DNA from: Leptospirales bacterium
GTDB taxonomy: Bacteria > Spirochaetota > Leptospiria > Leptospirales > Leptospiraceae
Length of the DNA: 64,000 bases
Reading direction: 5' to 3'
NCBI GenBank assembly: GCA_013297885.1
Contig: JAAFIR010000031.1
Span: 1-64,000 of the forward strand
Notes under the pieces: generated by a model
The model's input: the letters and a program-made list of their open reading frames with translations, nothing else
Told to the model about the DNA's origin: nothing
The model's database searches: none
Shown: positions 2,611-7,818 of the stretch, one piece after another
How positions within the stretch are numbered: position 1 is the stretch's first letter
Layout of the letters: each line of letters starts with the position of its first letter
Program-made: the position numbers and the translations under genes

Positions 2611-2647
2611 GCTCTACTTATTGCAAAATAGGTAGAGCTTTTTTTTT
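2611..2647 (+). terminator. Intrinsic terminator after the 1518-2483 lipoprotein gene
   Basis: A perfect 7-bp stem (GCTCTAC 2611-2617 with GTAGAGC 2632-2638) is followed by nine T residues (2639-2647). The loop holds TTATTGCAAAA, which can pair instead with TTTTTGCAATAA downstream of the T-run, so a competing hairpin exists. It lies 128 nt past the stop codon. Confidence 0.75.
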
Positions 2648-2893: not shown

Positions 2894-5167
2894 ATGAATG
2901 ATTTTTACAAACAAGCAATTGATTTCTGGAAAAATAAAAACTTTAATGAGTCGTTAAATCTGTTTGAAAATTTATTCAAAGAAAACGAAGGCAAAGTTAT
3001 AAAAATTATTGAGCAAGAAAAAATTTATCAAGGAGAAAATTCAATTTATTTCTGGAAGTCAAACTTGCTTGAAAATAATTTTTTTTCATTTTTTGAAGAT
3101 TATCACCAAGGTTATTATTTTTTAAAAGAATATTTTAAACAAAAACAATCAAGTATTTCATTAATTGAAAATCTAATCAAAAAGAAAGAAGAACTTTTAC
3201 TTGAAGTAATTAAAAATTTAAAAATACAAACTGCTTCAGAACATTTTAAATTAATTTTTGCTGAAGCTGTAAAGTTAAATTCAAAAAAAATAATTAAAAC
3301 TTTAAATGAAATGGCTTTTTTAGAAAAAGCTAAAAATGATTTAGAATCAGAAATTTTTCAGAAACAGGATGTATTTTTAAAAAAATTTTCAATTCAACAA
3401 CTGGTAATGACACTAGGGATTTATTTTGAGAACGAAAGATTACAAAATAGAAAAGAAAATTTAGTCACTCTTGACTGGAGTCCATCTATTTCTGATTTAA
3501 TTTCAAAAATTATAAATAGATATAAAGAAATGAATCAAGATAAAATAATAAACAATGAAGATTTAAGTATCGATGAGATGAATAAAATATATTTAGAATG
3601 TATTCTTAATCTTCAAAAAGACACTTCAAAAATAAATGATTTAATTTCTGATTTTGAAACATTAGAAAGTTTTGAACAAGCAATGGATTTTTATTATTAT
3701 TATGATTGGGAAATTGATTTTTCTTTAAATCCTCCTGAATTAAAACCTGTTGAATCTGAAAAACATAAATTATGGATTAAAAATGGATTCAAATACAAGC
3801 ATAAACATATTTATAATATTCAATTTGCACAAACACTTCCACAATCAGAACAAATTTATGAACATTTTAAAAATAGCCCAGACGATTTTGAAATGAATCA
3901 AAGATTATGCCAATTTAAATTATCATATTATCTTTCAAAACTCCCAGAAGAAATTTTATTCAAAGAAGAAACAAGTTTTTCTTCAGAGGAATATTTTTTT
4001 TGTATGGAATTTTTAGCAATGTATTCCAGAATACGATATTTAAAACCAGTTCATCAAAATACATATTATAATTCAAAGTCTAGAGACTATGAAGAACTAC
4101 TTTATTTAATTCAAGAAAATTCAAATAGCCAATGTGTTATATTTAGAAAAATTGAAGATCAAGTTAAAAATATTTTTAGAATAGAATCAAAACCTGTTTC
4201 ATTAACAAAAGATAAAATTAAATCTATTTATAAAATTGGCTCATCAGATTTAATTGGAAATTTTAAAATCAATTTAGAAGAAAAACCATTGATGAAACTT
4301 GGTGGTTATTATATCTTTTTTGCATTTCCAATTAGTAATAGAGATTATTCAGTTTGTTTAACTGAAATCATTGAAAAAGAAATTCTTTCATCTAATTCAA
4401 AAATTAAATTTGATACAAAAAAATGGACTGGAAAATATGAAGAATATATTTCAGAATTGTTTAGAACTTTTAATTATAATTCTAAATTTGGGTTAAAATA
4501 TGGAATTAATGATAATGAAATTGATATAATTGCTTATAAAGATAAAACTTTTTTTATAATAGAATTAAAAATGACTCATACTAGAATTGAAAATCATTCA
4601 GTTCTAGACCATAGGCGTTCTGCTTTATTAAAAGGAGGAGTACAGTTAGAAAAGGCTGTTTCTTATTTAGAAACAGAAGCTGGCAAAAAAGAAATTGCTG
4701 ATAAGATTTCTATTAATGAAAAAGATATTGAAAGAATTTATCCAATTTTAATCACAAATTCATTTGAAGATGATTATTATTTAATCTCTGATAAATTTAG
4801 AAAAATTACTTTATTTGAATTAGAAAGAATTCTAATAAATGATAAATTTTTTATGTTTAAACTAGAAGAATCAATTCTTGAAAACGATTCTGAAGCTTAT
4901 CAACAACATATTGACTTTACTAAATCTCAAATAGTTGATTTGAGTTTAAATCAAAAGTTAAAAGAGAAATTAAATTCAAAAAAAGAATTCGATAATCCTA
5001 GAAAAAAATTTTCTTTGAGAAAAGACAACGAAGAACCTTCACCAGATTACATTATTGATTGTGTTGAAAATGATAAAGTTTGGTCTGAATTGAAAAATGA
5101 AGATGACGGTTTAAAGGAAAGAATCATTCCGATAAATGGAGTTGATAGAATTAAATTCTACATTTAA
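2894..5167 (+). CDS. Large protein with C-terminal PD-(D/E)XK nuclease-like domain
   Basis: 757 residues from ATG 2894; a TTG at 2858 in the same frame would add 12. Neither start has a clear Shine-Dalgarno. The N-terminal 500 residues are Lys/Glu-rich and helical, with an opening that looks TPR-like ('AIDFWKNKNFNESLNLFENL'). Near residues 510-570 lies a restriction-endonuclease fold signature: a helix with 'YEEYISELF', then 'NEIDIIAY' (Asp) and 'FFIIELKM', which gives the E-x-K of a D...ExK active site. The 'RRSALLKGGVQLEKAVSYL' that follows fits the helix after the core in Mrr-like nucleases. There is no signal peptide, so it is cytoplasmic. The viperin gene follows 112 nt later on the same strand, so a joint role in defence is inferred. 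I do not recognise the full-length family. Confidence 0.6.
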   Translation: MNDFYKQAIDFWKNKNFNESLNLFENLFKENEGKVIKIIEQEKIYQGENSIYFWKSNLLENNFFSFFEDYHQGYYFLKEYFKQKQSSISLIENLIKKKEELLLEVIKNLKIQTASEHFKLIFAEAVKLNSKKIIKTLNEMAFLEKAKNDLESEIFQKQDVFLKKFSIQQLVMTLGIYFENERLQNRKENLVTLDWSPSISDLISKIINRYKEMNQDKIINNEDLSIDEMNKIYLECILNLQKDTSKINDLISDFETLESFEQAMDFYYYYDWEIDFSLNPPELKPVESEKHKLWIKNGFKYKHKHIYNIQFAQTLPQSEQIYEHFKNSPDDFEMNQRLCQFKLSYYLSKLPEEILFKEETSFSSEEYFFCMEFLAMYSRIRYLKPVHQNTYYNSKSRDYEELLYLIQENSNSQCVIFRKIEDQVKNIFRIESKPVSLTKDKIKSIYKIGSSDLIGNFKINLEEKPLMKLGGYYIFFAFPISNRDYSVCLTEIIEKEILSSNSKIKFDTKKWTGKYEEYISELFRTFNYNSKFGLKYGINDNEIDIIAYKDKTFFIIELKMTHTRIENHSVLDHRRSALLKGGVQLEKAVSYLETEAGKKEIADKISINEKDIERIYPILITNSFEDDYYLISDKFRKITLFELERILINDKFFMFKLEESILENDSEAYQQHIDFTKSQIVDLSLNQKLKEKLNSKKEFDNPRKKFSLRKDNEEPSPDYIIDCVENDKVWSELKNEDDGLKERIIPINGVDRIKFYI

Positions 5168-5170
5168 GAG

Positions 5171-5198
5171 TTGACAAACTAAAATGATTTTATAAAAT
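5171..5198 (+). promoter_or_regulatory. Putative sigma-70 promoter for the viperin gene
   Basis: TTGACA (5171-5176), 16-bp spacer, TAAAAT (5193-5198), starting 4 nt after the upstream stop codon and 82 nt before the viperin ATG. It suggests pVip can be transcribed apart from the nuclease-like gene. A+T-rich DNA gives chance matches, but a perfect -35 box is rarer. Confidence 0.5.
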
Positions 5199-5239
5199 AT
5201 TTAAGAATTAATTTTTTAAATTGTTCTATTAGAATCTCA

Positions 5240-5268
5240 TAGGCTTGGTCTTTGACCATTTGAGCCTA
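5240..5268 (+). promoter_or_regulatory. Two-step leader hairpin just before the viperin ribosome-binding site
   Basis: TAGGCT (5240-5245) pairs with AGCCTA (5263-5268), enclosing TGGTC (5246-5250) paired with GACCA (5254-5258). The hairpin stops 2 nt before the Shine-Dalgarno AGGA (5271-5274) of the viperin gene (ATG 5280). There is no T-run, so it is more likely an mRNA leader structure than a terminator. Confidence 0.45.
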
Positions 5269-5279
5269 AAAGGACAAAT

Positions 5280-6128
5280 ATGAATTTTAATTCAACGGTG
5301 AATTTTCACCTTTTAAAAAACTGTAACTTTCGTTGCAAATTTTGTTATGCACATTTTAATGATGCTTCTTTATTAACTTTTGATGAATCGAAACAAATCT
5401 TAATTGAGCTAAAAAAAATGGGTGTTTATAAAATTAACTTTGCAGGAGGAGAACCTCTTCTTTATAAAAATTTTGAAGAGCTTCTAGTATTAGCAAAAGA
5501 ATTAAGTTTTGTTACTTCAGTAATCAGCAATGGTTCTAAAATGACTAAAACTTGGATTTTTGAGTTTGGAAAATTTCTTGATATTGTTGGAATAAGCTGT
5601 GATAGTGCAAAAAGTGAAACTCTGATTAATCTAGGAAGAGGAAATGGGAATAGTTATGAAACAACTAAAGAAGTGTTTCACAATCTTGATTTGTTAAGTT
5701 TTAAAATTAACAGAAAAATTTTCAAAAAATTAAATTCTGTTATTACTCGTTTAAATTTTCAAGAAGATATGAATGACTTTGTAAAAAGTTTAAACATTGA
5801 CCGTTGGAAAATATTTCAAATTTTAAGAATTGATGGTGAAAATGAAAAAGCATTTAAAGCTCTTAAAATTTCAGATTGTGAATTTAAAGAATTTGTCTCA
5901 AAACATTTATCTTTAAATTCTTATCGAACAAAAGTTGTAGCTGAAACAAACACAGATATGATAGATTCTTACTTGATGATAAATCCTGATGGAAGTTTTT
6001 TTCAGAACTCAAAAGGAAAATATGTAAAAAGTTTACCTATTTTAGAAGTAGGATGGGAAAAAGCCTTCAATCAAATTTCTTTTTCAGAAAAGAAATTTTT
6101 AGATAGAGGGGGAGGTTATCTAATTTAA
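5280..6128 (+). CDS. Prokaryotic viperin (pVip), radical-SAM antiviral ddhNTP synthase
   Basis: 282 residues, close to the viperin catalytic core. The radical-SAM CxxxCxxC motif is Cys15-Cys19-Cys22 ('NCNFRCKFCYAHF'); SAM-binding 'NFAGGEP' is at 53-59. Viperin-specific blocks follow in order: 'SNGS' 83-86, 'ISCDS' 105-109, 'LGRGNG' 118-123, 'KLNSVITRLN' 150-159, 'RWKIFQ' 175-180, 'DSYLMINPDG' 229-238 and 'FLDRGGGYL' at the C terminus. These line up block by block with human viperin as I remember it; generic radical-SAM enzymes such as MoaA lack them. Viperins turn a nucleoside triphosphate into its 3'-deoxy-3',4'-didehydro form, a chain terminator for phage RNA polymerase. Which NTP is used cannot be read here. 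AGGA at 5271 sets the start. No nucleotide kinase is fused or directly adjacent. Confidence 0.92.
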   Translation: MNFNSTVNFHLLKNCNFRCKFCYAHFNDASLLTFDESKQILIELKKMGVYKINFAGGEPLLYKNFEELLVLAKELSFVTSVISNGSKMTKTWIFEFGKFLDIVGISCDSAKSETLINLGRGNGNSYETTKEVFHNLDLLSFKINRKIFKKLNSVITRLNFQEDMNDFVKSLNIDRWKIFQILRIDGENEKAFKALKISDCEFKEFVSKHLSLNSYRTKVVAETNTDMIDSYLMINPDGSFFQNSKGKYVKSLPILEVGWEKAFNQISFSEKKFLDRGGGYLI

Positions 6129-6372: not shown

Positions 6373-7152
6373 TTATTTGCTCATATTCAAACAATCCGAA
6401 TTAATTGTTTTTACATATTCAATTGGTCTTGTCCCAAGTTTGTTTGATCCTGAAAATTTATTTTCAAAACTAATTTTGTTTTCTATAAATGCTTTTTCCC
6501 ACTCAGTCATTAATTTTGTAGAGATTGGAAAATAGGACCAGTGCCATTTTTCTTCTTTGTAGCCTTTAAAATTTCTTTTTTCATGTTCATTGTATGGTTG
6601 ACAAAAACCAAACTTAAAAGCATTTTTTTTCATCCATTGGTATAAAAATTTTCCATTTCCAGTTTCATAATATGAATTGGTTAAGTTATTTATATCAAAA
6701 TCAGTTCCCCAGTGATGTCTTGAAGTGCTTGGAGCAGATGAAAACTCTAAAATCAAATTTATTTTTTCTTCATCTGTTTTTCCAACCACAGACTCACTCA
6801 TTTTTCTTTTACCTGAAAATTTATCTTCCCAAATCATTTTTTGATCTGAATAATTTCTATGTGCTGAAATAATAAAAATCGGTTGGTTGTCTTTTCCTTC
6901 TCTATCTATATCATAAGCTTTAATCATTTTTTGGTAAGCCAAAATCACATCTTCTCTTAAATGGTGAACTCTTTCTTCATTTGGATTTTTAAAACCTTTT
7001 AGAACTTTATCTCTAGAAAAATCTCCTGTGAGATATTTAATTTTATCAATACTTAAAAAAATATCAGGTTTTAATTCTTGGGAATCTATGTTTGAATTGG
7101 AACAGTTTTGAATGAATAAAATTAAACTAAGAAAAAAAAAAATATAGAACAT
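6373..7152 (-). CDS. M15-family D-Ala-D-Ala carboxypeptidase, lipoprotein (VanY-like)
   Basis: 259 residues. The hydrophobic N terminus ends 'LFIQNCSN', a lipobox with Cys17. Metal-binding and catalytic motifs of the VanY/M15 fold are visible: 'SRHHWGTDFDIN' (about 147-158; His and Asp ligands) and 'EKWHWSYFP' (about 206-214; Glu and His). An earlier 'FIISAHRNYSDQ' matches the 'S.YRS...Q' region of M15. It probably trims the peptide stems of peptidoglycan from the inner or outer membrane face. The poly-A/T stretch at its start codon leaves the Shine-Dalgarno weak. The neighbouring tmk cluster runs in the same direction with a 72-nt gap. Confidence 0.82.
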   Translation of the reverse strand: MFYIFFFLSLILFIQNCSNSNIDSQELKPDIFLSIDKIKYLTGDFSRDKVLKGFKNPNEERVHHLREDVILAYQKMIKAYDIDREGKDNQPIFIISAHRNYSDQKMIWEDKFSGKRKMSESVVGKTDEEKINLILEFSSAPSTSRHHWGTDFDINNLTNSYYETGNGKFLYQWMKKNAFKFGFCQPYNEHEKRNFKGYKEEKWHWSYFPISTKLMTEWEKAFIENKISFENKFSGSNKLGTRPIEYVKTINSDCLNMSK

Positions 7153-7224: not shown

Positions 7225-7818
7225 TTAGGATAGTAATAAAATTAATTTTTTAAAACAAAATTCTAATACTTCTTCAGAGGATTTTTCAGCATCAACATAA
7301 ATAGTATTTTTTGGAAGAATTTTTTTATATTCATTTGCAACTCTAGTTAGTTCATCTAAATTTTCAAAAAATTCAGATTCTCCTCTTTTAGCTGTGCGAC
7401 TTAGAGCAATTTTTGGATCAATTTCCAAATAAAACACAAAATCTGGAAGTAAAAATTTCTCATCTAAATTTAATTGAATGATTTTTTCTGAAGAAAAACT
7501 TTCATCCGATTGATAAGCAGCCATAGAATAAAAATATCTATCCAAAATTATATGAAATTCAGAATCTAAATTTGGCTGAATATTTTTAGAAATAGAATCT
7601 TTTCTATCTTTTAAAAAAAGCTGAATTTGTTCATTTTTAGAAAGAGAAATTTTGTTTTGTAAAAATTCTCTGATTTTAAGTCCATGTTCATATTTTGTTG
7701 GTTCAAAAAAATTTTTCACTTTGAAGTTTAACTTATTCAATTCTTCTGTAATTTTCTGAACTAAGCTAGTTTTTCCAGATCCATCAATTCCTTCAAAAAC
7801 AATCAATTTTTGTTTCAT
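7225..7818 (-). CDS. tmk: Thymidylate kinase
   Basis: 197 residues, normal length. P-loop 'GIDGSGKT' at residues 10-17, 'DRY' at 93-95 with the following 'SMAAYQ', and a LID-like segment rich in Arg/Glu near 'SRTAKRGESEFFE'. It phosphorylates dTMP to dTDP. The start overlaps the stop of the 870-residue gene by 4 nt, so the two are probably translationally coupled. It is the housekeeping enzyme of dTTP synthesis; closeness to viperin is likely chance because it is convergent and one gene removed. Confidence 0.9.
   Translation of the reverse strand: MKQKLIVFEGIDGSGKTSLVQKITEELNKLNFKVKNFFEPTKYEHGLKIREFLQNKISLSKNEQIQLFLKDRKDSISKNIQPNLDSEFHIILDRYFYSMAAYQSDESFSSEKIIQLNLDEKFLLPDFVFYLEIDPKIALSRTAKRGESEFFENLDELTRVANEYKKILPKNTIYVDAEKSSEEVLEFCFKKLILLLS

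Follow-up and report, generated by a model that had tools for sequence, protein, structure and literature searches.

Viperin belongs to the antiviral enzymes that bacteria, archaea and animals have in common. It is a radical-SAM enzyme that dehydrates a nucleoside triphosphate, which is CTP in vertebrates and either CTP, GTP or UTP in the bacterial relatives, to a ddh-nucleotide that terminates transcripts. Why bacterial viperins have differing partners is a question that the gene pair described here lets one address directly: does a viperin act on its own or together with another effector, and can the nuclease part be exchanged? The window, a stretch of 64,000 nucleotides from a Leptospirales bacterium, contains a nuclease-type gene directly upstream of a viperin gene on the same strand. 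A check against the list of open reading frames confirmed the coordinates, the strand and the 112-nt gap given in the initial annotation. The features of the locus are as follows.

2611-2638, plus strand: terminator-like hairpin and T-run, a 12-pair stem followed by TTTTTTTTT
2894-5167, plus strand: long PD-(D/E)XK ('viperin-associated NERD') protein, from PDLC02906 and homologues
2894-3328, plus strand: predicted N-terminal helical part of that protein, residues ~1-145, from AlphaFold
4415-4756, plus strand: predicted PD-(D/E)XK nuclease core, residues 508-621, from AlphaFold, Foldseek and alignment
5171-5198, plus strand: promoter-like TTGACA-16-TAAAAT in the gap upstream of the viperin gene, 11/12 matches
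5280-6128, plus strand: prokaryotic viperin of 282 residues, from NF038283, PADLOC pVip, solved viperins and tree

The 282-residue protein scored 282.9 bits in a profile search with the viperin model NF038283, far above the cut-off of 180, while the MoaA model gave 60.2 bits against a cut-off of 284. The PADLOC pVip profile matched it at E=5e-82, and solved viperins matched it at E=4e-50 to 8e-43, as against 2.5e-7 for MoaA. The radical-SAM motif CxxxCxxC is present (C15, C19 and C22), and the viperin blocks GRG, KxNSVI, RWK and the C-terminal GG.Y are kept, both in the alignment of relatives and against the solved viperins. In a maximum-likelihood tree of 30 rows, the protein grouped with bacterial and archaeal viperins with 100/100 support and was separated from other radical-SAM proteins of its own bacterial family. 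The viperin call made from the letters alone is thus firm, and the MoaA-like identity that had been named against it is ruled out by the model scores, the solved-structure matches and the tree. In the same tree, a Treponema viperin clustered with one genome of the window's own phylum. A thymidylate kinase gene 1.1 kb downstream (7225-7818, on the strand opposite to the viperin gene) was considered as a viperin kinase and rejected, since no further tmk homologue was found in the genome and this one is hence the housekeeping gene.

The upstream protein has 757 residues from the ATG at 2894, or 769 from an alternative TTG at 2858. The initial annotation knew of no family for it; PADLOC-DB has one, PDLC02906 'Viperin-associated NERD', whose profile matched at E=3.2e-11 (41 bits) and aligned over nearly the full length (residues 5-730 on profile positions 6-541 of 542). 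The same profile gave 198 bits for a protein of G006, a genome of the window's genus, and 132 bits for one of G691 (Bacteroidota), and it also finds relatives that have no viperin neighbor. NERD is here PADLOC's naming, as a Pfam search of the 757-residue protein found no family, PF08378 (NERD) included, and no kinase or ATPase domain was seen. A relative in G922 (Pseudomonadota) reached 21.3 bits with PF08378, below the cut-off of 22.1, and a sequence search of the PDB returned no relative of the window protein.

Two AlphaFold models, built on thin alignments (3 and 6 sequences), agree on a core at residues 508-621 with the order helix-strand-strand-strand-helix-strand, which is that of PD-(D/E)XK nucleases, with a pLDDT of about 70-88 across most residues. 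The top Foldseek matches in the PDB had weak scores, the best E being about 1e-3; nearly all of them were PD-(D/E)XK nucleases, including R2 endonuclease, R.BspD6I, AF1548, Shedu, McrC, Can2/Cdn1 and Hjc. The catalytic residues of the core are E516, D544, E557-x-K559 and Q584. Seven distant homologues, only 16-27% identical to the window protein, have E516, D544, K559, T561, Q584 and E625 invariant and either E or Q at position 557. The D...ExK site read from the sequence is therefore real, and since the catalytic site is intact across the homologues, the large protein is probably an active nuclease. The long N-terminal part had been described as helical; this holds for residues ~1-145, the only stretch of that part for which the model is usable (pLDDT ~72-90 in the first model and ~41-89 in the second), while residues ~150-505 have a pLDDT below 50.

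The strong, terminator-like hairpin at 2611-2638 sets the pair apart from the preceding gene (1518-2483), and the next gene downstream, a VanY-like gene at 6373-7152, runs in the opposite direction. The two genes lie in an AT-rich part (GC 0.23-0.24 versus about 0.27 for the whole window), and the surrounding genes, judged by eye, have an ordinary chromosomal or housekeeping-type look. Since a PADLOC scan of ten other genes of the window found no match except tmk, the pair is not merely packed into a defense island. The gene order flanking tmk is not kept in relatives. Between the two genes, the site at 5171-5198 has the top promoter-like score of the region, where the overall count of such sites is no higher than expected by chance, and the viperin gene may have its own promoter at this predicted site. 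Comparison of the gaps of about 112 nt showed no convincing conserved element.

The same arrangement recurs elsewhere. In G002, which belongs to another genus of the same family, a nuclease of 773 residues (27% identical to the window protein) is followed after 113 nt by a viperin, and in G714 (Bacteroidota) a nuclease of 634 residues is followed after 69 nt by a viperin, both in the same order and on the same strand. The G714 nuclease is linked directly to the window protein by profile only (hhalign E=1.5e-5, probability 80%) and is also tied to it through the intermediate G691 (BLASTP 2e-22 to G691). Altogether, nuclease then viperin on one strand with a gap of 69-113 nt is found in three genomes of two phyla, with viperins of two clades. 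Five other full-length relatives came from searches of whole genomes in which viperin was no criterion, and two of these five directly precede a viperin. The worry that homologues of the large protein might never lie near viperin genes is thus removed. Upstream of the G002 pair (L049 1375-5438, contig C26) lies a GmrSD_N/DUF262 protein, with a match to the HEC-05 candidate defense models at E=1e-109.

Other relatives of the nuclease have other neighbors. In G006 the nuclease, which is the best PDLC02906 match (contig C88, L048 1-2999), neighbors the type I restriction gene hsdM, with no viperin on that stretch and one elsewhere in the genome. The G691 relative has no viperin on its 10-kb contig, and the G922 relative has none within 16 kb and has an integrase-like gene near it (by eye). 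On the Tenacibaculum finnmarkense plasmid CP116296.1 (L186 5713-8160), a 'Viperin-associated NERD' match at E=1e-28 directly follows BREX pglX-pglZ-brxL, with no annotated viperin near. BREX, HsdM and the HEC-05 candidate are defense settings, and the relatives found at BREX and next to type I methylase genes point to an accessory role of a general kind. Since the relatives in G006, G691, G922 and Tenacibaculum have no viperin on the stretch examined, the nuclease does not need viperin. The two-gene locus proposed at the outset is thus likely to be a functional pair, and a looser one than proposed, with homologues also beside HsdM, beside BREX or alone. Searches of phages and viral contigs found no relative of the large protein; phage records contained no viperin relative, and in the viral contigs the viperin search gave only two weak radical-SAM matches and the Bacteroidota viperin query none.

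Monophyly of the viperins from the three pairs is rejected (AU p=4e-6), as is that of the corresponding nucleases (p=0.003; the branches are long). Both trees track the hosts, the window's family versus Bacteroidota. The pair is either old, with partners lost or swapped, or was assembled twice, and both histories favor a functional link. Within the window's family, viperins that belong to one clade (100/100) differ in their neighbors, which indicates that partners change. The partners of the sister viperins are a WYL-like protein and a VakA kinase.

A conserved module of a 333-343-residue protein, a WYL-like protein and a viperin was seen at L050 5293-8953 (G006, contig C220) and at L051 5051-7016, the WYL-like proteins matching PADLOC WYL at E=1.8e-14 and 3.3e-16. 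The G006 copy has a VakA-type kinase after the viperin, and the module is possibly a regulated viperin operon. The window's own genome (G000) has a second viperin gene, 57% identical, on contig C67 (L051 5051-7972, and L002). This gene is preceded by a WYL-like protein and by a 333-residue protein for which Pfam has no family; it is interrupted, being read in two frames, either through decay or through an assembly error. On the archaeal plasmid pMETHO01 of Methanomethylovorans (L140 4281-7816), a viperin is flanked by a 473-residue hypothetical protein on one side and a SEC-C domain protein on the other, and neither neighbor matches the nuclease family. The viperin scan of genome contigs gave about ten true viperins (L052-L061) among the matches listed, the rest being other radical-SAM proteins.

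Based on the viperin identity, the kept nuclease fold and residues, the recurrent gene order and the defense settings, we propose that the pair is a two-gene locus against phages, of the already known viperin-NERD type, in which a ddh-nucleotide-making viperin is joined by a PD-(D/E)XK nuclease as second effector. We put the probability of this reading at about 0.6. In the proposed scheme, viperin, with SAM and a 4Fe-4S cluster, would convert a nucleoside triphosphate to the 3'-deoxy-3',4'-didehydro nucleotide, which would terminate phage transcripts. The long helical N-terminal part of the nuclease would serve as a sensor or assembly surface, and the nuclease would act as the other effector, probably a back-up, by cutting nucleic acid of the phage or of the cell. 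The long nuclease would thereby be an accessory effector that can be exchanged and that deals a second hit. From the comparisons above we infer the coupling, the trigger, the nuclease substrate and the joint response of both proteins.

PADLOC's independent curation of the association counts for a functional pair and speaks against chance neighbors without a common role, as does the arithmetic of their placement. Viperins occur in 16 of 198 genomes of the window's phylum and in 1 of 198 in a Bacteroidota draw, where the single viperin genome was the chosen center of that draw. If no more than 8% of genomes have a viperin, the probability of such adjacency by random placement is 2e-8 or less, a rough figure as three of the searches used a profile built from viperin-associated proteins. 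Chance neighbors are thus highly improbable, although the adjacent cases are just three and the family is rare. Some evidence does count against the functional pair: nuclease relatives occur without a viperin on the stretch examined, the closest viperins have other partners, the promoter-like site lies between the genes, and the G714 nuclease is linked by profile and through an intermediate. An alternative is two independent defense genes that share a site, a lone-acting viperin and a nuclease that forms a system by itself or works for nearby genes. For it speak the promoter-like site, the nuclease relatives found beside BREX, beside HsdM or alone, and the same-clade viperins that have a WYL-like protein and a kinase instead. 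Against such independence, three genomes from two phyla have the two genes directly adjacent and in the same order, and the pair stands among housekeeping-type genes, of which, in the ten scanned, only tmk matches PADLOC. We regard independent genes as possible but doubtful.

The constant order, with the large protein always first, could also mean that this protein controls viperin, its helical part sensing infection and then releasing or activating viperin expression or activity. Sister viperins do have a WYL-like, regulator-type protein at the same upstream position. However, all the catalytic residues are retained, although a protein with a purely regulatory function would have no use for them, and the Pfam search found no DNA-binding family in the large protein, so that control of viperin is unlikely. 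Returning to the two-effector locus, we tentatively extend it: long PD-(D/E)XK proteins may be a general plug-in effector, which has taken the same upstream place at viperins in two lineages and also joins BREX and type I restriction. If true, in the viperin-coupled form phage transcripts would be ended first and nucleic acid cut next, possibly at a polymerase stalled on the ddh-nucleotide.

The initial annotation held that a nuclease partner of viperin would be new. This is ruled out by the PADLOC-DB (2023) family PDLC02906 and by the published HicA and RelE RNases, whose genes adjoin prokaryotic viperin genes according to a 2024 paper, which remarks that HicA beside viperin had already been seen earlier (PMC10865869). 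Those systems resemble the window pair in having a nuclease gene that adjoins the viperin gene, but HicA and RelE are small toxin RNases of another fold, whereas the partner in the window is a long PD-(D/E)XK protein. The viperins with VakA kinases (Nostoc, Pseudoalteromonas plasmids and G006) belong to the same enzyme family as the window viperin, and their operons have a dedicated nucleotide kinase, which the window locus lacks. In archaea, an association of viperin with TPR has been reported (PMC12988326). A survey of BREX discusses nucleases of the NERD type as effectors that act as a back-up and are possibly suicidal (PMC12839542). Effectors of the NERD/Shedu type, among them the NERD nuclease of PglW (BREX type 2), combine PD-(D/E)XK with a long extra part, as does the window protein, although the latter has no Pfam match and no kinase or ATPase domain. 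The PADLOC viperin-NERD proteins are likewise long, with the nuclease domain nearer the C-terminal end, and adjoin viperin, although their profile matches the window protein only distantly, at 41 bits. None of the papers covered by our literature search treats the viperin-NERD pair as a subject of its own, and Bernheim et al. 2021 may describe it. The window pair is an example of this known, barely described association. What is new here is its recurrence in a second genus and across phyla, the intact catalytic site, and the finding of the nuclease family beside BREX and HsdM.
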